Assembly (NCBI GenBank): GCA_951217055.1
Contig: OX578280.1
Span: 43,589,882 to 43,653,881 of the forward strand
DNA length: 64,000 nt
Source of the DNA: Gerris lacustris
Lineage: Eukaryota; Arthropoda; Insecta; Hemiptera; Gerridae
Direction: 5' to 3'
Shown here: positions 5,366 to 62,772 of the stretch, piece by piece
How the letters are laid out: each line of letters begins with the position of its first letter
Position numbering within the stretch: position 1 is the first letter of the stretch
Program-made: the position numbers and the translations under genes
The notes under the pieces: model-generated
The model's input: only the letters and a program-made list of their open reading frames with translations
Database searches by the model: none
Told to the model about the DNA's origin: nothing

Positions 5366-5857
5366 TGTTTTAGTTTACTCTAGGTGACTTGGTGTTATCA
5401 CTAAAAGTAGCTTACTGTTGTTTACTTTCAATAGTGTAAGTAGTGTCTGTTGCCTTTATAAGACTCTATGATATATATCAGTGTAATGTGATTACATCCC
5501 TAGCTAGAGGTATATTATTACAATGTATTAGCTGCTTTTCTAGCTTATCCTTTCCTCTCTCTCTCCAAACCCTTTGATCTAATATTGAATAACATTGCCT
5601 TTATATTATATTTATCTCTCTAGTGTATTTTGTCAAATCTCAGTTTATCCTTTATAAATTATTATTGATATTGTCTATTTATTTGTCACGTTATTTTTCT
5701 TTACTCACGATTTCTAGGATTTTATGACTTTCATTTCATTACCTATTTGATTACTTAAGTGTATTTGCACTTGTCTTGGTCTTTGTCTTTTTTTTAAGTG
5801 TATTTTATTCCAGAGATTTAATTAAATAATATATTATTGCTTTTAATATAATTATAA

Positions 5858-5998
5858 GTTTAAATATAATTTAAATCAAATTATAATTATTATTAACTAC
5901 GGGAAACAGACAGAGAAAAATACACTCCAGCACCGGGATTTGAACCACGGGCCTCTATATTTCCAGTATAGAGTTCTACCAACTAAGCTACGCCGGAG
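5858..5998 (-). mobile_element. tRNA-headed SINE-like unit
   Basis: On the minus strand, 5997-5926 folds as a tRNA of 72 nt. It has a 7-bp acceptor stem (TCCGGCG with TGCTGGA), an A-box (TAGCTTAGTTGG), a perfect 5-bp anticodon stem CTATA/TATAG around CTGGAAA, and a B-box-like GGTTCAAATCC. The T stem and D stem contain mismatches and the GGA anticodon does not fit a class II serine tRNA, so it is not a working tRNA. The tRNA part runs straight into a body (GTGTATTTTTCTCTGTCTG, then an AT-rich tail). A second copy of the whole unit lies at 6214. This is the layout of a tRNA-derived SINE transcribed by RNA polymerase III. Confidence 0.65.
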
Positions 5999-6213
5999 AA
6001 TGATTTTCTCTGACGTTAATGATACCTTGTCCCGAATTTAAGCTTTAAATTTTCCATAAATCTGAGAAGTCAACATTAATGAAATAGAAATAGACCGAGA
6101 AATTACGCTTATAATTATTGTAAAGTACCCAATTAGTACCTGTACCTAGTGCAATCAATTAGAAATTCATATTTTACGATTTTGGTAGTATTCATACTAC
6201 GGAAAGATTAAAT

Positions 6214-6390
6214 TTTAATTTAAATCAAAATATAATTATTATTAACTACGGGAAACAGACTGAGAAAAATACACTCCAGCGCCGGGATTTGAACCACGGG
6301 CCTCTATACTGGAAATATAGAGGCCCGTAGTTCAAATCCCGGCGTCTGTTTCCCGTAGTTAATAATAATTATAATTTGATTTAAATTATA
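6214..6390. mobile_element. Snap-back inverted dimer of the tRNA-headed SINE-like unit
   Basis: The left arm (about 6214-6306) repeats the unit at 5858-5998 in the same orientation but stops inside the anticodon arm. The sequence then reverses and runs back out as the reverse complement to about 6390. The right arm lacks about 20 bp at the acceptor/body junction (after ATCCCGGCG it jumps to TCTGTTTCCC). The axis of symmetry sits at the anticodon loop. Confidence 0.75.
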
Positions 6391-6404
6391 ATTATTTAGT
6401 ATAT

Positions 6405-27266: not shown

Positions 27267-27458
27267 TGTAAATAATTTATTTAGCTTGGTTGCTATGACA
27301 TTTGTTTTGTTTTGATTTGTATTATTTAAAAAAAATAAATGTCAGTTGCCTTCTTCGAAGCGTCAACGTTAGACGTGAATTTGTCTTTTCAATTTTCTTT
27401 CTCTATACTTTATCATTATTGTTTAAGTCCTTTGCTCGCCGCTTAGTATAACTCAACA
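27267..27458 (+). repeat. BEL/Pao 5' LTR, 192 bp
   Basis: Begins TGTAAATAATT and ends AACTCAACA, giving the canonical TG...CA boundary. I find no difference from the 3' LTR at 33043-33234 on direct reading. It holds the core promoter described separately, and an AATAAA at 27334-27339 just upstream of the predicted start site, which in the 3' LTR would act as the poly(A) signal and imply a very short R region. Confidence 0.97.
27342..27377 (+). promoter_or_regulatory. LTR core promoter: initiator plus DPE
   Basis: TCAGT at 27342-27346 matches the arthropod initiator with A+1 at 27344. AGACGTG at 27371-27377 starts exactly at +28, the required position of the downstream promoter element, and fits its consensus fully. 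No TATA box sits at -30 (the TATTTAAA at 27323-27330 is too close). A TATA-less Inr+DPE promoter is typical of Drosophila retrotransposons. The same pair occurs in the 3' LTR at 33118 and 33147. Confidence 0.8.
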
Positions 27459-27463
27459 TTTGT

Positions 27464-27481
27464 TGGTCCTTTGGGTTAGTG
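27464..27481 (+). promoter_or_regulatory. Primer-binding site of the BEL element
   Basis: TGGTCCTTTGGGTTAG starts five bases after the 5' LTR. The leading TGG is complementary to a tRNA CCA end. The tRNA species is not assigned. Confidence 0.7.
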
Positions 27482-27505
27482 AACAAGCGCGATTACAGTG
27501 TGACA

Positions 27506-30500
27506 ATGTTGACGCGGGCAAAAGGATTAGAGTTAGAACAGGCACGGAAGTTGGGTTTGAAGAGCGAAGAGGAAGCTAATTCAGAGTCGGCAGTTACAAC
27601 AATACCCGTGGAAACAGGGGAGCCGGCAAGGGGCAGTGTGACGAAGGTGGCTTGCTCAAGATCTTCTCGAGCGTCTGTCTGCAGTGAGCAGAGGCGGCAG
27701 CTAGAGCTGCAGCTAAAGACAGAAGAGAAAATCGCGAGACTTCGCCAAGAGGCCCGGGATGAGAAAACTGCACTACTTCGTTTGGAACAGCAAATCGAAG
27801 AACTGAAGCTGCAGGAACAGAGTCGGCGGGGCTCACAATGCAGTAGCAGGACTAGCATTCGTACTGAAAACGACATGGCGATTCCGGACATAACTGAAGA
27901 GCGAACTAAAACCTGGGTAAATTCCGTGACAGCGGAGAAGGTTGCAAAGGTAAAAAATAACATCCATTTTAAGACTGCTTGTCAAGTAGAGGGACAAGAC
28001 AGTAAAACTAAGGTTGAGACTGTTGAGCCTAAGTTTGCGCACTTTCTTGCGCGGCAAACGGGGTTCAGAGAACTGCTACCGTTCTCGGGTGACCCGGTTG
28101 AGTGGCCGGCCTTCATTGCGCATTATGAAAGAACGGCACTAGCGTGTAATTATTCACCTGAAGAAAACGCTGTCAGGTTACAAAAAGCGTTAAAGGGGAA
28201 GGCACGTGATGCTGTTGAGGGATTACTTCCCTATCCTAACTGTGTGTCAACCGTACTAGACACACTTAAAATTCGTTTTGGTAGGCCGGAGTATATAGTT
28301 AAAAGACTAATACTAAATGCTCAAAAAATAACAACGCTTAAAGATGAAAAACTTGACAGCTTGCTTGACTTTGCGACTGCTGTGCTTAATATTGTTGTGG
28401 CACTACAAAATCTTAACTGCCCAGGGCACCTAGAAAATCCACAGTTGCTTGAGGACTTAGTTAATAAGTTACCACCTAGAATGCGCTTAGAGTGGGGTGA
28501 GCACATATTAACAACTAATGAATCTGGTCTTATACAATTTAACAGGTGGATGCAAAGAAAAGCAAATGCACTTTGCATGGTTTCTACCCCAGTGTTTGTA
28601 CAGGGACATTCAAGTGGACAACGGAAGGACTCGAAAACAGTGCTACTAGCCAGGGACGAGGTTTTGGCGCCAAATAGAGATGCAATAGAGAACGTCGCGA
28701 CCGTGGACAGCGCTCATCAACCATTTGGAGCTACACCTAGAAAACAAGTCTGCGCTTACTGCAACTCAGCCCTGCATACAGTGCGTAAGTGTAGTGAATT
28801 TCTTAAGATGTCTGTAACTGATCGTCGCAGTTGGGTGGCGGACAATAAAAGGTGCTATGTTTGCCTTTTAGCATCGCATTTTGCGGCCAGATGTAGGCTT
28901 AAAAAACGATGTGGTGAAGGGGGCTGCAAGGCAAGACACAACGCTTTACTGCACGTAGAAAAGACAGCGATAAACATGACATCGGAGATAAGCAAACACG
29001 CCGAATATAAAGACGAACAAATAGGGGGCACGTCAATGTTGCCAAAATCCTGCAACGTCACCAAAGGTTCCAATGTGGTATTGCTCAGTGTATTGCCAGT
29101 CACTCTCAAAGGTCCAAGTAAAGAAGTAAGAACCTACGCTCTTCTTGATAGTGGTTCTTCGGTAACACTTTGTGATGCTAAAATAGCGCAAGAGTTAGGT
29201 TGCATCGAAGGTGATAAAGCTGCGGAAGATGCGTTAGAGTTACAGTGGGTGAATGGGCAGGTGGCTGTCAATGATTCATTTAGGATTAATTTAAGCATCA
29301 AAGGAACGCATCTCAGTAAATATTTTGAGCTAAAAAATGTGAGAACTGTTCCCAATCTTGCATTGCCACAACAGACACTTAATACTAAGGATGTAACGGC
29401 GCAGTGGCCTCAATTCAACCGTGTACCTTTAAGTAATCTAAACAACATCAGGCCTACTTTATTAATTGGTCAAGATAACTGGAGACTGTTAGTGGCGAGA
29501 GAGGTACTTGAAGGTCCGGCAGAGGGTCCAGTAGCTACTAAAACCAGGTTGGGTTGGACCCTTCACGGGAAAATGGAGGTGTCAAGTGGTCACGGGGAGC
29601 GGAGTGTGGCAAGTGTTTTGTGTATGCACGATTTTAACGATACTAATAGCGATATCTATTTACATGATCTGATAAAGACTTCTTTCGCATTAGATGACTA
29701 TGGTGTGAAGCCAACCACTAACACCGAGAAAGCTGAAGACCAACGAGCGCGGAACTTACTTAAGATTACGACGAGAAGAAGAGAGCCTCATAGGTGGGAG
29801 ACCGGGCTTTTGTGGCGAGAAGACGAAGTCCGGATGCCAGCTAGCAGATCAGCAGCGATGCGAAGGCTCCATCTAATTGAGAAGCGAATGGATAGGGACA
29901 GCCAGTTCGCGATGGCATATACTGCGAAAATGAATGACTTCATTGATAAGGGTTACGCAAGAAAACTTTCTGGTAATGAAGTGAAGAGCTTGTTGACATC
30001 AAACAAAGCATGGTATCTTCCTGATATGCCCGTAGTGAATCCTAACAAACCAACCAAACTAAGAATCGTGTTTGATGCCGCGGCAAAGGTTAGAGGTGTT
30101 AGTCTGAATAGCTCACTGCTTAAGGGTCCAGATAACTTTTCATCAATGTTAGGAATAATTTACAAATTCAGGCAGGGTGAAATAGCCTTTAGTGGTGATA
30201 TTAGGGAGATGTATTGCCAGATAGGCATAATAAGTGAAGACCAGCCAGCACAATTGTTTCTTTGGAGAGGCACAGAGCGACAGACGCCACCAGAGATTTA
30301 TGTAATGCAAGTGATGATTTTTGGAGCTGTTTGTTCACCATTTGCTGCCCAGGAAATCAGGAACATTAATGCGAAGTTATTTGAAGACACTTATCCAGAG
30401 GCAGTTGGTGCCATTTGTGAAAGGCATTACATGGATGATTACCTAGACAGTGTACATTCGGAAGAAGAGGCTATCCAGCGGATTAAAGAAGTTGCGCACA

Positions 30501-30967
30501 TACACGCTTCTGGAGGTTTCATAATGCATGAGTGGCTCAGCAACTCAGAGTTGGTATTGAACTCTACAAGGAACATTAACGTCAGTGAGGAAAATTCACC
30601 AACAACGAGTGTGGCAATGAAAGAACTGGGTAATGCTGGGATAGGATTGGTTAAAGGTAAAGTTTTAGGTTTATTGTGGGACCCTAGAAGGGACACGCTT
30701 AAGTATGAACTAAGGTTTAGCAAGCTGAAGCCAGGCGTATTAAACGAGCAGTACAAACCAACAAAACGTGAAGTGACCCAAGCAGTTATGGCGGTGTTTG
30801 ATCCATTAGGATTAGCGGCGAACATCATGGTACAAGGCAAGATGCTCATGCAACGATTATGGCGCGCAGGAATAAGCTGGGACCAGCCTCTCCTTGAAGA
30901 GCAGAAACCTGTGTGGCAGCGTTGGATTCGCTTGAGGTACCACGGTGCTATAAAGGTTCGGTTTTAA
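27506..30967 (+). CDS. BEL/Pao Gag-Pol, first frame: Gag, protease, reverse transcriptase
   Basis: A GTG-started frame is open from 27479, but the first ATG is at 27506, giving 1,153 residues; ATG is the better eukaryotic start. Residues ~61-106 are a charged coiled coil. Residues ~186-330 form the BEL Gag capsid-like region. Two CX2CX4HX4C zinc knuckles lie at 416-429 and 450-463, followed by a partial third Cys/His cluster. The aspartic protease has DSGSS at ~548. Reverse transcriptase starts near residue 850, and its catalytic box YMDD is at 975-978 (30428-30439). The frame ends abruptly after the RT connection region (WQRWI at ~1138), where the RNase H should follow. RNase H continues in the -1 frame, so this product lacks RNase H and integrase unless frameshifting occurs. 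Confidence 0.92.
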   Translation: MLTRAKGLELEQARKLGLKSEEEANSESAVTTIPVETGEPARGSVTKVACSRSSRASVCSEQRRQLELQLKTEEKIARLRQEARDEKTALLRLEQQIEELKLQEQSRRGSQCSSRTSIRTENDMAIPDITEERTKTWVNSVTAEKVAKVKNNIHFKTACQVEGQDSKTKVETVEPKFAHFLARQTGFRELLPFSGDPVEWPAFIAHYERTALACNYSPEENAVRLQKALKGKARDAVEGLLPYPNCVSTVLDTLKIRFGRPEYIVKRLILNAQKITTLKDEKLDSLLDFATAVLNIVVALQNLNCPGHLENPQLLEDLVNKLPPRMRLEWGEHILTTNESGLIQFNRWMQRKANALCMVSTPVFVQGHSSGQRKDSKTVLLARDEVLAPNRDAIENVATVDSAHQPFGATPRKQVCAYCNSALHTVRKCSEFLKMSVTDRRSWVADNKRCYVCLLASHFAARCRLKKRCGEGGCKARHNALLHVEKTAINMTSEISKHAEYKDEQIGGTSMLPKSCNVTKGSNVVLLSVLPVTLKGPSKEVRTYALLDSGSSVTLCDAKIAQELGCIEGDKAAEDALELQWVNGQVAVNDSFRINLSIKGTHLSKYFELKNVRTVPNLALPQQTLNTKDVTAQWPQFNRVPLSNLNNIRPTLLIGQDNWRLLVAREVLEGPAEGPVATKTRLGWTLHGKMEVSSGHGERSVASVLCMHDFNDTNSDIYLHDLIKTSFALDDYGVKPTTNTEKAEDQRARNLLKITTRRREPHRWETGLLWREDEVRMPASRSAAMRRLHLIEKRMDRDSQFAMAYTAKMNDFIDKGYARKLSGNEVKSLLTSNKAWYLPDMPVVNPNKPTKLRIVFDAAAKVRGVSLNSSLLKGPDNFSSMLGIIYKFRQGEIAFSGDIREMYCQIGIISEDQPAQLFLWRGTERQTPPEIYVMQVMIFGAVCSPFAAQEIRNINAKLFEDTYPEAVGAICERHYMDDYLDSVHSEEEAIQRIKEVAHIHASGGFIMHEWLSNSELVLNSTRNINVSEENSPTTSVAMKELGNAGIGLVKGKVLGLLWDPRRDTLKYELRFSKLKPGVLNEQYKPTKREVTQAVMAVFDPLGLAANIMVQGKMLMQRLWRAGISWDQPLLEEQKPVWQRWIRLRYHGAIKVRF

Positions 30968-33015
30968 CTGCTGCAGACATTAGTTTACATGTGTTTTGTG
31001 ATGCCAGCGAAGAGGCATATGCTGCAGTAGCATACTTTAGGGTAGTGGGAAGCACGGGTGTTGAGGTTTCGTTTATAGCCGCAAAGTCACGGGTAGCGCC
31101 TTTGAAGCCTGTCACGATCCCTAGGCTAGAACTGCAAGCAGCAGTTTTGGGCAGCAGATTAGCCAAAAATATTGTGGAAAACCACAGCATAGCTATAACA
31201 TCTCTAAATTTATGGACTGACTCCCAAGCTGTGTTGTGTTGGTTAAAATCGGGGCCTCATAGGTTCAAGACATTTGTAGCTCACAGGGTAGCAGAAGTTC
31301 AAGAACTGACCAAAGATGCAACGTGGCGGTGGGTTCCAAGCCAGCTAAATCCTGCAGATCTTGCAACAAAATATCATCCCAATTACAATCCAACATTCTG
31401 GATGGAGGGGCCACAGTTTTTACAAGTGAAAGAGCAAAGCTGGCCAAAACCAAATGTACACCACGAGGCAACATTAGATCGGCAAGTTTTAGAGATAAAA
31501 CCTCAAACTGTTAATGTAATCAACACTAAAAAGGAGGATTATTTAGAAGCTCTGCCATCAGTGTTTTGCACCAATCGATGGCTGAAATTAGTGCGAAGCA
31601 CAGCCCGCATGTTAAAGTTAATTGATCTGTGCAGAAAACATGTGACAGAAAAGAAGATCGACCCTAGTGATATCAAGAGAGCAGAAGTGTGCTGGAGTAA
31701 GTTAGTGCAGCGAGAGTGCTTTCTGACTGATGTTAAAGATCTCCAAGCGGAAAGAAAACTTAGCATGAAGAGCAGGCTAATAGGGCTTTCCCCATATTGT
31801 GACGAAGCAGGAGTGCTACGCGTAGGCGGTCGTGTCGAAAGGATAAAGGATGTCAGTTGGGATGCGCGTCATCCTGTTATTTTAGCACCAGAACACAGGT
31901 ACACCGAGCTACTAATTCTGCACTATCATTGCGCTTTAGGACACGCGAACAACAACACTGTTATCAATAACGTCCGGCAGAAATTTTGGATTCCAAGACT
32001 ACGGCAAGTAGTCAAGAAAGTTGTTAGTAGGTGTATGGAATGCCGAGTCAAAAAAGCTAAGCCAAACCCACCTTTAATGGCGGCATTACCAGCTTGTCGC
32101 TTAGGGCACCATATGAGACCTTTTACATTTACAGGTTTAGATTATTTCGGTCCTTTCAACGTGACTATTGGAAGAAGACGCGAGTTGCGGTATGGTGTTT
32201 TGTTCACGTGCTTAACAGTACGAGCTGTACACCTGGAGATAGCAAACTCGCTAACCACTGATAGCGCCATACTTGCCATTAGAAGATTTATAAGTCGCAG
32301 AGGGGAGCCGAAAGAATTCTGGTCAGACAACGGCACTAATCTTCGAGGGGCCGAGAGTGAACTCCGTAGAGCTCGTTTGGAGATCAATCAGGACAGGCTA
32401 GAACAACATCTAGCTCGGTACCACGAGACGAAGTGGAAATTCATATCCCCGGCGTCACCTCACATGGGTGGTGCTTGGGAAAGATTAGTAAGATCAGTAA
32501 AGACGGCACTAAATGCCATTATGTCGGATAGAGTTGTCAGAGAGGAGGTACTTTCAACATTAATGGTGGAAGCAGAAAATATTGTCAATCAAAGACCATT
32601 GACGGACGTACCAGTGGAGTCAGAAGCTGATGAGGCACTTACGCCAAATCATTTTCTAAAGGGGTTATCTAGCGGATCACCATCACCGGGTGTTTTTACT
32701 GATGATGATCTAAACCTAAGACGGCAATGGAGAATTGCTGAGCGATTGGTTGACCACTTTTGGCATAGATGGGTGCGCGAGTATATGCCGACATTAACGC
32801 GAAGAACCAAGTGGCAGAAACCAAGTGAACCAATTAAGGAAGGTGACCTGGTGGTGCTGGTAGACCAGAGAGGCAAAAGGAACACTTGGCCGAGAGGAGT
32901 GATCGCTGCCACTTTCCCCGGACAGGATGGTCAGGTGAGGGTTGTTGATGTCCGTACAGTGAACGGTGTTCTTCGAAGACCAGCGACTTCGATCGCAAAG
33001 ATTGATGTACAATGA
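30913..33015 (+). CDS. BEL/Pao Pol, second frame: RNase H and integrase
   Basis: Open in the -1 frame relative to Gag-Pol, overlapping it by 55 bp. The first codon of the open stretch is GTG, so it probably has no initiation codon of its own. RNase H carries VFCDAS (catalytic Asp at 31000), RLELQAA and LWTDSQA blocks. The integrase has an HHCC zinc finger (His at ~337 to Cys at ~376), the DDE triad at 32140, 32326 and 32479 (51 residues between second Asp and Glu), and a C-terminal DUF5641-type region (WHRWVREY to WPRGVI). The stop at 33013-33015 lies 27 bp before the 3' LTR. Domains look intact. The break is best explained by a single-base indel between about 30920 and 30945; I see no canonical slippery heptamer there. 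Confidence 0.9.
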   Translation: MAALDSLEVPRCYKGSVLTAADISLHVFCDASEEAYAAVAYFRVVGSTGVEVSFIAAKSRVAPLKPVTIPRLELQAAVLGSRLAKNIVENHSIAITSLNLWTDSQAVLCWLKSGPHRFKTFVAHRVAEVQELTKDATWRWVPSQLNPADLATKYHPNYNPTFWMEGPQFLQVKEQSWPKPNVHHEATLDRQVLEIKPQTVNVINTKKEDYLEALPSVFCTNRWLKLVRSTARMLKLIDLCRKHVTEKKIDPSDIKRAEVCWSKLVQRECFLTDVKDLQAERKLSMKSRLIGLSPYCDEAGVLRVGGRVERIKDVSWDARHPVILAPEHRYTELLILHYHCALGHANNNTVINNVRQKFWIPRLRQVVKKVVSRCMECRVKKAKPNPPLMAALPACRLGHHMRPFTFTGLDYFGPFNVTIGRRRELRYGVLFTCLTVRAVHLEIANSLTTDSAILAIRRFISRRGEPKEFWSDNGTNLRGAESELRRARLEINQDRLEQHLARYHETKWKFISPASPHMGGAWERLVRSVKTALNAIMSDRVVREEVLSTLMVEAENIVNQRPLTDVPVESEADEALTPNHFLKGLSSGSPSPGVFTDDDLNLRRQWRIAERLVDHFWHRWVREYMPTLTRRTKWQKPSEPIKEGDLVVLVDQRGKRNTWPRGVIAATFPGQDGQVRVVDVRTVNGVLRRPATSIAKIDVQ

Positions 33016-33029
33016 ACAACATACTCTTT

Positions 33030-33041
33030 GGGGTGGGAAAA
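33030..33041 (+). promoter_or_regulatory. Polypurine tract of the BEL element
   Basis: GGGGTGGGAAAA ends one base before the 3' LTR (33043). It primes plus-strand DNA synthesis in LTR retrotransposons. Confidence 0.85.
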
Positions 33042-33042
33042 T

Positions 33043-33234
33043 TGTAAATAATTTATTTAGCTTGGTTGCTATGACATTTGTTTTGTTTTGATTTGTATTA
33101 TTTAAAAAAAATAAATGTCAGTTGCCTTCTTCGAAGCGTCAACGTTAGACGTGAATTTGTCTTTTCAATTTTCTTTCTCTATACTTTATCATTATTGTTT
33201 AAGTCCTTTGCTCGCCGCTTAGTATAACTCAACA
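33043..33234 (+). repeat. BEL/Pao 3' LTR, 192 bp
   Basis: Identical on direct reading to 27267-27458, including the eight-A run. AATAAA at 33110-33115 is the likely polyadenylation signal. Confidence 0.97.
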
Positions 33235-46666: not shown

Positions 46667-46856
<190 letters not shown>

Positions 46857-46863
46857 TCTCAGG

Positions 46864-46906
46864 GCATCGTCGGGCCCCTGATGAGTCGGACGCGACGAAA
46901 CGATGC
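46864..46906 (+). ncRNA. Hammerhead ribozyme 1
   Basis: All conserved core elements are present in order: stem III 5' strand GCATCG (46864-46869), U16.1 and C17 (46870-46871, a GUC cleavage site), stem I hexamer GGGCCC (46872-46877), CUGAUGA (46878-46884), stem II GTCG/CGAC (46885-46888, 46893-46896) around GACG, GAAA (46897-46900), stem III 3' strand CGATGC (46901-46906). The 10.1-11.1 pair is G-C and A15.1-U16.1 is kept. The open helix is III, so it is type III. Predicted cleavage follows C46871. Stem I has no loop, so cis folding is doubtful and dimeric folding more likely. Confidence 0.9.
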
Positions 46907-46954
46907 AGGACATGGCGTAATGCCGAGCCAACATCTTTGTGACGTATTGTCTAG

Positions 46955-47028
46955 TGTTGGAACAACTCCTATGTGTCACGCTTGCGTAGCACATCCCTTG
47001 GTGTCTCTCACTACACAAATTGTGTACC
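46955..47028 (+). repeat. Arm-equivalent segment of unit 1
   Basis: Same orientation and sequence as 47262-47335 except for two substitutions (GAACAACTCC against GAACAGCTCC; GCGTAGCACA against GCGTGGCACA). It can also pair with the left arm at 46783-46856, enclosing ribozyme 1 alone. Confidence 0.9.
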
Positions 47029-47170
47029 TTATATTGCAGTGTGCAAAAACACGGTATTACATTGCTGATTTGTTTTGCCTGCCAAGCAAGAATGGCGTTG
47101 TGAGAGCACGCTCGTCTCTGATAAAGCCCTATTGATCTTCTTGAGTTGGTATAGGTCCAGAGTTGGGTGG

Positions 47171-47213
47171 GCATCGTCGGGCCCCTGATGAGTCGGACGC
47201 GACGAAACGATGC
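47171..47213 (+). ncRNA. Hammerhead ribozyme 2
   Basis: Base-for-base the same 43-nt motif as ribozyme 1: GCATCG (47171-47176), UC with cleavage after C47178, GGGCCC (47179-47184), CUGAUGA (47185-47191), GTCG/GACG/CGAC (47192-47203), GAAA (47204-47207), CGATGC (47208-47213). Cleavage at both sites would release a 307-nt RNA (46872-47178) with the 5'-OH and 2',3'-cyclic phosphate ends typical of hammerhead products. Confidence 0.9.
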
Positions 47214-47261
47214 AGTACATGGCGTAATGCCGAGCCAACATCTTTGTGACGTATTGTCTAG

Positions 47262-47335
47262 TGTTGGAACAGCTCCTATGTGTCACGCTTGCGTGGCACA
47301 TCCCTTGGTGTCTCTCACTACACAAATTGTGTACC
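47262..47335 (+). repeat. 74-bp inverted arm of the ribozyme element, right
   Basis: Perfect partner of 46783-46856. In it, 47278-47301 forms an 11-bp hairpin (ATGTGTCACGC, TT, GCGTGGCACAT, one T-G wobble). Confidence 0.95.
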
Positions 47336-47371
47336 TTATATTGCAGTGTGCAAAAACACGGTATTACATTG

Positions 47372-47471
<100 letters not shown>

Positions 47472-47640: not shown

Positions 47641-47860
47641 ATTTGACTAGAACCCTGGTGTGGGAGAGGGGAGAGCATGGGCTAGCCATTATTAAAGTTA
47701 AGCAGCTGCGAGTGTAGTCACCACTTGGACGGGTGATTTTGGGGGAGATCCTAGGTTCAGTTCCCTGACCGGGCCCCTCGGTTTCATCCTGCATCGCTAT
47801 ATAAATGGTTAGCTGCCTATGTGAAGCGGTGACTAACTGGTTGCACATTTCATATAATAT
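47641..47860 (+). mobile_element. 5S rRNA-headed SINE-like element
   Basis: 47694-47736 resembles the internal control region of 5S rRNA genes: AAAGTTAAGC (A box), then AGTGTAGTCACCACTTGGAC and GGGTGA (box C region). About 15 bp later comes a B-box-like GGTTCAGTTCCC (47754-47765), then a body GGGCCCCTCGG, TTTCATCCTGCATCGCTATA, TAAATGG shared with the reverse-strand SINE at 60475. A 5S head on a retroposed body is the definition of the SINE3 class. Flanks are AT-rich; the tail is not distinct. A plain 5S pseudogene would not share the body. Confidence 0.65.
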
Positions 47861-51200: not shown

Positions 51201-52086
51201 ATGGAAAATTCCTTCAAACCCGTATTTTTGTTTCTTGACATAAAAAACTATGATGTTTTCCTTTGATTCGTTAAAATAATAGAGAGGTGGATATGAAAAA
51301 CGAAATTTTCGAGGGAACATGACGGTAAGATGAATACAAAAACGAATCCAGGATGTCCTCCTCTTTCATGTAACTTACCACATGACGCATTTTTGTAAGA
51401 ATAATGACCTAATCCTTAATTTTCAATCCTTTGATTTTGAGGGATGTTTTTCGGGGCTTTCCTTTAATTTTCCTGTGTTATTAATAATATACTTACTTAA
51501 CTGCTAAGTTTAAATTGTTAAGTGTAGTTTTGGAGATCAGGGTGCGTTAAAGACAGATAAGAAGGAATGTATAAGTCATCGTTTTTGCCTAAGACCCCTA
51601 AAAATAAATAAAATGTATGTGTTTTCTATTAATACATATTAAAATAATAAATTTATTAATTTTTCACCAAAGGTAAGGTGAATATTGAATCGGTTAAACT
51701 ATTAAAATATTCAAAAGGGGTAAAAATTCAAAAAGTATCATTCACATGAAAATACTAAAGTTTTCGTATAAAAGTGAGTTAAACTTATCATTGTTTTTTT
51801 TTTTTTTTATCGTTTTTTCCAAAATAAATTGAATAAAGCTTTCTTTAATTTTATCTTCCTCTGCATACTTTTCACTTAATTCCATTTTATATTAAACAAA
51901 ATAAACAAGCAGAATCAACAAAAAGACAACATTTAAAATAAATAATTTGTGGAAGTGAAACTTTTTAATTAAGTTATAAATTAAAAATTGAATTTACATC
52001 TAAAATTTAATGAACAAAAAGTATTTTGGTATGGATAATATAAACAAACTAAATTAAAAATTATTACTTTTTTTAAAATTTTATTT
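48240..52086. other. Long non-coding stretch
   Basis: Contents: a dispersed repeat piece at 48370-48440 (TGTGGTATATTGCTTCCTCG, GCTTTTACAAACATTATT) related to 3946-4010; the inverted partner of 44415-44525 at 48800-48905; T runs at about 48718-48729 and 51786-51809. Frames at 48370, 49251 and 50446 have no recognisable domain. I see no gene. Confidence 0.5.
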
Positions 52087-52655
52087 GAATTCTTATTGAA
52101 AGTAGGATCTAAAGGGAAAAATTAAAAGCTCACTTTTGTAATATTTCGACCCCTGTTTGGGTCATCTTCAGGCTGACTAAAATATCACTATTCAATCCTG
52201 CTATTTATTTTTTTATTCTAAAAGATCCTTTTACTGTAAGGTTCTTTTATTCTAATTCTAAGTGGTTATTGTCAATAGTTTGGGATAATTTTTCTATAAT
52301 TCCATATTTATTCTATGACTGTCATTATTGGTTAATGAAGCTTCAAAGTTTTTTTAAAAAATATATACACTATTATCCAGGTAACTTAACCCAATACAAC
52401 TGTCTCAAGGCAAGTCTATCAACAATTTTGAAGCTGTATTAACCAATAGTGACAGTCATAGAATAACTATGGAATTTTAGAAAATAATATCCCAAACCTA
52501 TTGACTATAACCACACATTTTTTAGCAAGAACAGGATGGAATATTAATCATCTAGTCAGCTTGAAGATTACCCAAAGAGGGGTCGAAATATTGCAAAATT
52601 GAGTTTTTAATTTTTTCCTTTAGACCCTACTACCAATAGAATTACATACAATGAA
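52087..52655. mobile_element. Long-inverted-repeat (foldback) element, copy 2
   Basis: The left arm 52087-52350 and right arm 52426-52655 are imperfect reverse complements over about 230-260 bp with only ~75 bp between. The outer ends carry AGTAGGATCTAAAGG and its partner CCTTTAGACCCTACTA. The next block reads AAAAGCTCACTTTTG, ATATTTCGACCCCTGTTTGG, GTCATCTTC. The inner ends are TGACTGTCATTATTGG and CTTCAAA. No coding capacity. Copy 1 is at 8897-10560 and a fragment sits in the minisatellite at 18873-18990. Confidence 0.85.
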
Positions 52656-55424: not shown

Positions 55425-55677
55425 ATGAAAGAGGACAGTAGTTCAATAACCAAACAACGTCTTCACACAACGCCAATTGTTATTGAAATAATTGACCGAT
55501 TTCGGCTGTTCTAAAGCAGGCTTATTCAAATAATCTAGAGGTTACTAGATCGACTTCGAAAGTAAAAGTGAAGAAGGCTGCTTTAAAATAGCCGAAATCG
55601 GTCAATTGTTTCAATTACAATTTTTTGTGTGAAGACGTTGTTCGGTTATTGAACTAACTACACCTCTTTCATGATGA
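55425..55677. mobile_element. Foldback/MITE-like inverted repeat, ~250 bp
   Basis: The left arm (55425-55521: ATGAAAGAGG, AGTTCAATAACCAAACAACG, CAATTGACCGATTTCGGCT in part) pairs with the right arm (55576-55677), leaving a ~55-bp loop. Arms are imperfect (several substitutions and a small indel). The frame 55290-55514 simply crosses the left arm. Confidence 0.75.
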
Positions 55678-61298: not shown

Positions 61299-62772
61299 AA
61301 ATGGAAGTATGGTGATACCCTTCAAACCGTGATTCCGAGATCTCTGTGATGGAGGGGACTTAAGAACCCGGGGATATCATTAAAATCCGTTTCATATACA
61401 TATATGTCTGTGCGTACGTATGTATATAAGTCCGTATACGTTCGTTCGGAACTTTAAACCTTTATAACATCGCTTCAAGACATCGGTATTAAGATGCGTT
61501 TTCCGGCATTTTTTAGAACTTTTGTCGGAAAAACTGATGGCACAATCCCGAACCTCCTAGCTCGACGTTTCGGAGCTGCAGTCACTTAAGCACGAAATTG
61601 GTCTGTCGACGATAGCTTCAGTTGGCTTTATTTGATTTCAATTTCCTTTGGGGTATATATGTGTCCTATATGGTAGATTGTACCTATACGTTTTGAGCAC
61701 AACCGGTTTAGGGGATATTGGCATTTTAGTGTTTTTTGGGCAGTTGTGTCCGTCCAGTTGATTGTATCCAAACAATTCTTGCGTTAAAATATGCAGCTTG
61801 TAGACTACTTTTGAATGGATATTAGCATGATTACCAAATATCGAGTATAAGCACCAAAAAATGAAACAAAAGTATCATATTGAAATTTTGGTAATTTATA
61901 CTCAGTTCTCTCTTGCTCACGTATTGACACCACTACATTTCATGGAAGTCAGGTGTGGAATTTCCACACCGGTACTTTTTTTGTAGTCGTATTTTATATT
62001 TAAATGGCATAAATATACATTTATATATTTGAAAGGCTGGCTGTTTCTTTACCTGATGATTAATCATTTAACATAAACAGTTTCTTATGAATATCATAAA
62101 TAAATCATATTAAAGTACCGGTGTGGAAATCCCACACTGACTTCCATGAAATGTTGTGTTGTCAAGATTTATTTAATAGCTTAAATAACCACATCGAAAA
62201 ATAGCCAAAATTTCAATATGATACTTTTATGTTTCATTTTTTGGTGCTTATACTCGATATTTGGTAATCATGCTAATATCCATTCAAAAGTAACACAAGC
62301 TGCGTGTTTTAACGCAAGAATTGTTTGGATACAATCAACTGGAAGGACACAACATTTTTTTATAAAAAACACTAAAATGCCAATATCTCCCAAACCGCTT
62401 GTCCGATTGTGCTTACAAAGTATAGGTACAATCTACCATAAAGGACACATATATACCCCAAAGGTAAAAATAAAGCCTACTGAAGTTATCGTCGACAGAC
62501 CGATTTCATACTTATGTGACTGTAGCTACGATGTTCGGGTTTGCGCCATCAGTTTTTCCGACAAAAGTTCTAAAAAATACCGCAAACTGCATGCATCTCA
62601 ATACGATGTCTTGAGGCGATTTTATAAAAGTTCCGAACGAACGTACGTACATACATACTTACGCACAATCATATATGTGTATGAAACAGATTTTTATATC
62701 CCCGGGTTCGTAAGACCCCTCCTTCACAGAGATCTCGGAATCACGTCTTGGAGGGTATGCCTCACTTATTTC
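61299..62772. mobile_element. Foldback element with ~670-bp inverted arms
   Basis: The left arm (61299-61978) and right arm (62114-62772) are imperfect reverse complements along their whole length. Examples are CGTGATTCCGAGATCTCTGT against ACAGAGATCTCGGAATCACG at the outer ends, and ACACCGGTAC against GTACCGGTGTGGAAAT at the inner ends. A loop of ~135 bp separates them. The arms include a TATGT/ACGTACG-type simple repeat. Scattered substitutions and indels show that it is not recent. The 186-residue frame 62218-62778 lies entirely in the right arm. Superfamily unknown; no transposase. Confidence 0.85.

Follow-up and report, generated by a model that had tools for sequence, protein, structure and literature searches.

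Does a hammerhead ribozyme that has no closed helix I still have a way to cut, and what kind of element carries it? The question is raised by a locus of Gerris lacustris, for which an earlier note had proposed two complete hammerheads in tandem. The locus lies in the window, the whole 64,000-nt stretch of DNA that was analysed. The cores and their parts are listed below in positions of the window, + being the forward strand.

46864-46906, +: hammerhead core copy 1, type III order with open helix III, found by Rfam and motif search
46864-46870, +: 5' strand of helix III, copy 1
46871, +: H17, the cleavage-site nucleotide of copy 1
46872-46877, +: loopless palindromic GGGCCC in place of helix I, copy 1; proposed partner 47179-47184
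46878-46884, +: CUGAUGA, copy 1
46885-46896, +: stem II, copy 1
46897-46900, +: GAAA, copy 1
46900-46906, +: 3' strand of helix III, copy 1
47171-47213, +: hammerhead core copy 2, identical to copy 1, with H17 at 47178
47179-47184, +: GGGCCC, copy 2

Both 43-nt hammerhead cores are real. In RNA, each is composed of GCAUCGU, C17, GGGCCC, CUGAUGA, GUCG-GACG-CGAC, GAAA and (A)CGAUGC in this order, and the NUH, CUGANGA and GAAA elements follow each other as in type III hammerheads. Stem II has 4 bp (GUCG/CGAC) closed by the loop GACG and stem III has 7 bp, comprising 6 bp and the A15.1-U16.1 pair; both stems are entirely Watson-Crick in the two cores. Covariance search revealed that RF00008 (Hammerhead_3) matches exactly both core intervals with 42.6 bits each, which corresponds to E=5.9e-8 for the 601 nt searched and to E=6.2e-6 when the whole window is searched with all 4227 families. 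As this score is under the gathering score of RF00008 (48.5 bits), neither core appeared in the default Rfam scan of the whole window, where a tRNA alone was reported. No further copy of the motif with up to 3 mismatches was found in the 64-kb window, and none with up to 3 mismatches in 100 shuffles. The two cores represent a single duplicated observation and not two independent ones. The earlier note was borne out on the identity of the two motifs and their 307-bp spacing, on the presence of GUC, CUGAUGA, stem II, GAAA and stem III in the right order in both copies, and on the cuts predicted after 46871 and 47178. The covariance check that it had proposed stood in part, giving a type III match at the exact coordinates with a score below the cut-off. 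Its description of the hammerheads as complete had to be given up, since helix I is represented by a GGGCCC without loop which cannot close inside one copy.

This GGGCCC fills the stretch from the cleavage site to C3, where a helix I closed by a loop is missing. A single copy is predicted to favour other folds, and its helix I cannot close alone. In single-copy pieces of 101-104 nt, the probability of helix III was at most 0.05, and the cleavage-site strand was paired with CUGAUGA in a competing 7-bp hairpin. Three type III hammerheads with all helices present, from one viral contig of IMG/VR (L008), were folded as controls; they share that contig and hence are not independent.

L008 11694-11750, -: type III hammerhead, Rfam
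L008 11223-11279, -: type III hammerhead, Rfam
L008 9729-9785, -: type III hammerhead, Rfam

These score 46.7, 43.0 and 37.2 bits, all below the gathering score, and the minimum free energy (MFE) fold of the monomer was the hammerhead in 3/3 with helix I at 0.92-0.98. Two other readings of the Gerris cores were rejected by eye. For a type I reading, with helix III closed 3' of GAAA and a new NUH downstream, the helix I partner of the nearby GUA is not adjacent to CUGAUGA. For an alternative helix I of GGGC/GCCC with the cleavage site further 5', the preceding bases are CA in copy 1 and GT/TG in copy 2, and not UH.

Folding of the two cores together gave a different picture from the fold of one. 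The MFE structure of the cofold is a complete double hammerhead of -41.9 kcal/mol, compared with 2 x -15.1 kcal/mol. In it the two GGGCCC form a common 6-bp helix I and helix III is swapped, each of the two helices III taking its 5' strand from one copy and its 3' strand from the other, and each helix II forms within its own copy; pair probabilities are about 0.94 for helix III and 0.89 for helix I. The L008 controls, folded two at a time, kept helix I within each copy. All 4096 six-mers were tried at the GGGCCC site, and the dimer fold was obtained from 9 of the 64 palindromes and from 0 of the 4032 others. The mean gain in pairing energy was -8.7 kcal/mol for palindromes and -8.6 kcal/mol for other six-mers, with -11.7 kcal/mol for GGGCCC and -12.9 kcal/mol for the non-palindrome CGGGCC. 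As the mean gain is equal in palindromes and others, the gain is not diagnostic, and what a palindrome decides is the fold.

Fold prediction in cis showed a strong dependence on the ends of the transcript. Transcripts from 46862 to 47213 or 47220 form the site-1 hammerhead from both copies, with helix III at 0.89-0.92 and helix I at 0.63-0.64, while helix III of site 2 is at most 0.041 throughout. Helix III of site 1 takes values of 0.17-0.44 for 3' ends at 47230, 47250 and 47270, is 0 for 3' ends at 47300, 47340 and 47376, and is at most 0.005 once the left arm described below is included. Between two molecules with 7 nt of 5' and 14-56 nt of 3' flank, helix III reached at most 0.26 in six pairs. 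As the fold is lost in longer transcripts and with the left arm, cleavage, if any, would most likely take place during transcription, from copies without the inverted arm.

The surroundings of the cores were then resolved into the following features.

46690-46781, no strand: (TA)46 microsatellite, 5' side of the insertion
46777-46856, -: inverted left arm, reverse complement of 47262-47341 in unit 2 (98.75%); possible twin-priming product
46862-47069, +: unit 1, 208-bp direct repeat with 3 differences from unit 2
46955-47031, +: right arm 1, pairing with the left arm as a hairpin of ~80 bp around copy 1
46872-47178, +: putative 307-nt RNA that cutting at both sites would release, from coordinates
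47070-47168, +: 99-bp spacer between the repeats, not repeated elsewhere in the window
47169-47376, +: unit 2, second 208-bp copy, ending at the 3' (TA)n
47376-47469, no strand: (TA)47 microsatellite, 3' side

The direct repeat units are identical at 205/208 positions, and the sense part (46862-47376) amounts to 1.68 copies of a 307-bp unit. One such element locus is present in the 64-kb window. Reading it as an insertion is supported by its GC content (0.49 against 0.325 for the window), by (TA)n on both sides, and by a piece of 74 nt in the left arm (46783-46856) which is the exact reverse complement of 47262-47335. The near-identical units suggest a recent insertion, although the three differences could predate it. 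An inverted 5' piece of this sort, which the earlier note did not mention, is what target-primed reverse transcription leaves behind when twin priming occurs, as in L1 elements. At its outer junction the left arm enters (TA)n where the unit has TTATAT; TATA is common to both, with one mismatch beside it, and a 3' end in (TA)n could have served as primer on the RNA at this TTATAT site. Twin priming does not account for about 5 nt at the inner junction. The junction between arm and unit 1 (46851-46861) reads CCAACATCT-CA, and CCAACATCT recurs inside the unit at 46928-46936, a possible template jump. The ~80-bp hairpin has an energy of -180.2 kcal/mol over 291 nt (z -18.75), and in this genomic copy the left arm is predicted to enclose the first ribozyme in it, disrupting the hammerhead fold. 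A search for Pol III boxes gave eight A-box-like sites, each one mismatch away, and B-box matches that were weak; no promoter is claimed. The three ORFs of 100 aa or more that overlap the element had no Pfam match at E<=1, in agreement, as far as tested, with the statement of the earlier note that no protein is encoded. Its other proposal, release of a 307-nt RNA, is right in spacing and cut positions and is plausible only if two copies pair.

Other repeats and elements are also present in the window. A BEL/Pao LTR retrotransposon at 27267-33234 has 192-bp terminal repeats that are 100% identical, as in a young copy; a Peptidase_A17 domain is divided between its two overlapping ORFs (27479-30967 and 30913-33015), so that the reading frame is interrupted. 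BEL/Pao elements are known from animals. Among the 120 matches listed, of 1861, for its protein P0002, the named ones are mostly from insects, along with a sponge, a ribbon worm and two springtails, and identities are 41-49% except one of 55% over 46% of the query in the springtail Allacma fusca. The host was accordingly placed among the animals, probably the arthropods. A tRNA-Ser-like sequence at 5925-5997 (-) lies in a ~118-bp repeat (5856-5973 and 6204-6322) with 91% identity between the neighbouring copies, and looks like a tRNA-derived SINE and not a gene. An imperfect palindrome of 1.4 kb (61315-62758) is 77% identical to its own reverse complement, and smaller palindromes are situated at 52078-52652, 55425-55672 and 6211-6393. 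The stretch 47660-47860 had by eye the look of a 5S rRNA-derived SINE; it gave 0 Rfam matches at E<=5 and was dropped.

The locus is best explained as an insertion of retrozyme-like type, young and non-autonomous, whose loopless type III hammerhead works, if at all, as a double hammerhead sharing helix I. A probability of roughly 0.46 is given to this reading. According to it, target-primed reverse transcription with twin priming would have placed 1.68 copies of the 307-bp unit in (TA)n. The hammerhead is type III in order and without loop I, and its helix I is the self-complementary GGGCCC. Within a multimer, or from one transcript to another, the GGGCCC of two copies are predicted to pair as a common 6-bp helix I, and the strands of helix III to be exchanged, 5' with 3', between the copies. 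Each site would then be cut by the CUGAUGA-stem II-GAAA of the other copy, and both cuts together would release the 307-nt unit, which, once alone, could not rebuild helix I and would not cut itself again. The released unit may be circularised, and the element may be mobile. Against the double hammerhead, the absence of loop I means absence of the contacts between loop I and loop II that speed natural hammerheads. The stronger claim, that this is an obligate double hammerhead in a mobile animal element which shares a palindromic helix I and not helix III, whose multimers cleave while the unit-length RNA does not, and whose monomer circle would be protected by its own architecture, is tentative and somewhat doubtful.

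The main rival is decay, and it is plausible enough to be kept in view throughout. It supposes that an ordinary retrozyme or satellite hammerhead lost its loop I by deletion, and that the two copies were inherited from a single defective parent and do not cleave. It agrees with the Rfam alignment, which fits the cores only through a deletion of 7 model positions in helix and loop I (4 more are omitted in loop II). Deletion of a loop from a GGG/CCC stem gives a palindrome automatically, the pairing energy is not special to palindromes, and the full sense transcript, like those with the left arm, is predicted to be without hammerhead. Other features speak against decay: neither copy has lost a core nucleotide or any pair of stem II or of the 7-bp stem III, the lesion is common to the two copies and so predates the duplication, and since only 9 of 4096 six-mers gave the dimer fold, decay would have reached one of them by a modest coincidence. 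Considering both, the likeliest working account is a double hammerhead with a common helix I, carried by a retrozyme-like insertion.

The arms of the element could also be read as those of a foldback or MITE-like hairpin DNA element, with terminal inverted repeats of ~80 bp and TA target sites, in whose loop the hammerhead would be incidental. The near-perfect inverted arms beside TA (46777-46856 and 46955-47034) fit this. However, unit 2 carries a right arm but no left one, the last right arm is separated from (TA)n by ~35 nt of unit sequence, and the left arm is closer to unit 2 than to unit 1 (1 mismatch against 3). A 5' inversion of a tandem repeat is the simpler account, and the foldback reading is improbable.

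Even less credit is given to activity of a single copy with a minimal helix I, in which one G-C pair closes a 4-nt loop. The core and stems II and III are intact, and the bare 43-nt monomer showed helix III at 0.60; on the other side, the same monomer had helix II at 0.16 and helix I at 0.0, and its MFE fold is not a hammerhead. In fold prediction the sole possible G-C pair in helix I costs 2.2 kcal/mol (from -12.8 to -10.6), and the 47-nt monomer favours another fold (-15.1 against -12.8 kcal/mol), which makes this mode of action very unlikely.

A bare descriptor is weak evidence in a large scan, and the covariance score carries more weight. Among 12912 dinucleotide-shuffled windows a loose hammerhead descriptor gave 563 matches (94 in 1839 shuffles in a first run) and a stricter one, with stem II of at least 4 and stem III of at least 7, GU allowed and linker of at most 10 nt, gave 19; the actual motif is tighter than that, having GUC and all pairs Watson-Crick. 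Chance resemblance within an unrelated repeat, which such matches in shuffled windows might suggest, is hardly credible in view of the E value of 6.2e-6 over the whole window and all families and of the direct repeat, whose start only 2 nt 5' of the motif supports the motif being part of the element.

Recurrence of the loopless form was searched by patterns that fix parts of stem II or the composition of the six-mer; other loopless forms would escape them. The pattern GTC-N6-CTGATGAGTC...GACGAAAC gave 2 viral and 3 prokaryote matches, with a palindromic six-mer in 0/5 and an Rfam hammerhead at E<=0.01 in 0/5 loci. Another pattern, in which the six-mer was restricted to G and C, gave 26 viral matches, and 27 motifs were examined when L005 is included. 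Two of the 27 were palindromic (L015 and L023, the same sequence) and were rejected, having no stem II and a stem III of 1 bp. By eye, five of the 26 viral matches had the look of ordinary hammerheads in which the pattern had caught the loop; among these five, an Rfam match at E<=0.01 was obtained in L008 alone, for its three motifs. Exact words of the element were found in no viral contig, and blastn of the element gave no match in phage records.

The resemblance to retrozyme and Penelope-type hammerhead repeats, which the earlier note had pointed out, is supported by the 307-bp tandem spacing and the 1.68 units. The comparisons that follow draw on parts of the cited papers and hold for those parts. 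Animal non-LTR retrozymes are tandem non-coding repeats of ~170-400 nt with type I hammerheads, of which dimers occur, and unit-length RNA is known from them (Cervera and de la Pena 2020, PMC7229834); those of amphibians need dimeric hammerheads (PMC7229834). The present element is like them in its short tandem repeats, with a hammerhead in each and without a recognised protein, and unlike them in its type III order, strong helix III and lack of a closed helix I. The direct repeats (pseudo-LTRs) of Penelope-like elements hold type I hammerheads without helix III, for which cleavage as dimers is considered possible (Lunse, Weinberg and Breaker 2017, via PMC7761336 and PMC6155905). One missing helix, direct repeats and possible cleavage as a dimer are common to both, whereas here the missing helix is helix I and the type is III. 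The ORF for reverse transcriptase and GIY-YIG endonuclease of Penelope-like elements was not found at this locus, where the spacer is 99 bp and the ORFs over the element have no Pfam domain; the locus may still be a non-autonomous Penelope-like derivative. In a lizard Penelope-like element, hammerhead mutants left insertion in vitro unchanged (PMC11167929), and accordingly mobility of an element of this kind need not depend on its hammerhead.

Double hammerheads offer a closer comparison of the fold. In those of avocado sunblotch viroid and of a newt satellite, the elongated helix is III (PMC6155905). As predicted for the Gerris element, two tandem copies pair in them to form stable active sites; helix III is common there, while helix I would be common here. 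For the pDo500 satellite of Dolichopoda cave crickets, a double hammerhead has been proposed with helices I and II intermolecular and helix III within one copy, and its copies can also fold singly (Rojas 2000, via PMC2837043). An intermolecular helix I therefore has precedent, in the proposal for an insect satellite; unlike in pDo500, no single-copy form is predicted here and helix III is swapped.

Type III hammerheads have been reported as uncommon in animal genomes. Those of termite and dipteran genomes and of HDV-like RNAs have longer-than-usual helices I and II with a pseudoknot, and the termite ones are isolated motifs, while typical sizes are 6 bp for helix I and 4 bp with a 4-nt loop for helix II (PMC7936874). 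The predicted dimer matches these typical sizes, and like the termite and fly cases it comes from arthropod DNA; it differs from them in its loopless helix I of six nucleotides and in its tandem repeat. In the open-access papers searched, no type III hammerhead was found described whose helix I is loopless and palindromic. The standard covariance cut-off misses this motif, and more of them may be overlooked in animal genomes. In the literature compared here, helix III is mostly the one that dimer-dependent hammerheads have given up. Should the same hold for helix I, collapsing one helix into a palindrome and acting as a dimer would be a more general solution, and, if true, it suggests how a circular RNA made by ribozymes could avoid being cut again.
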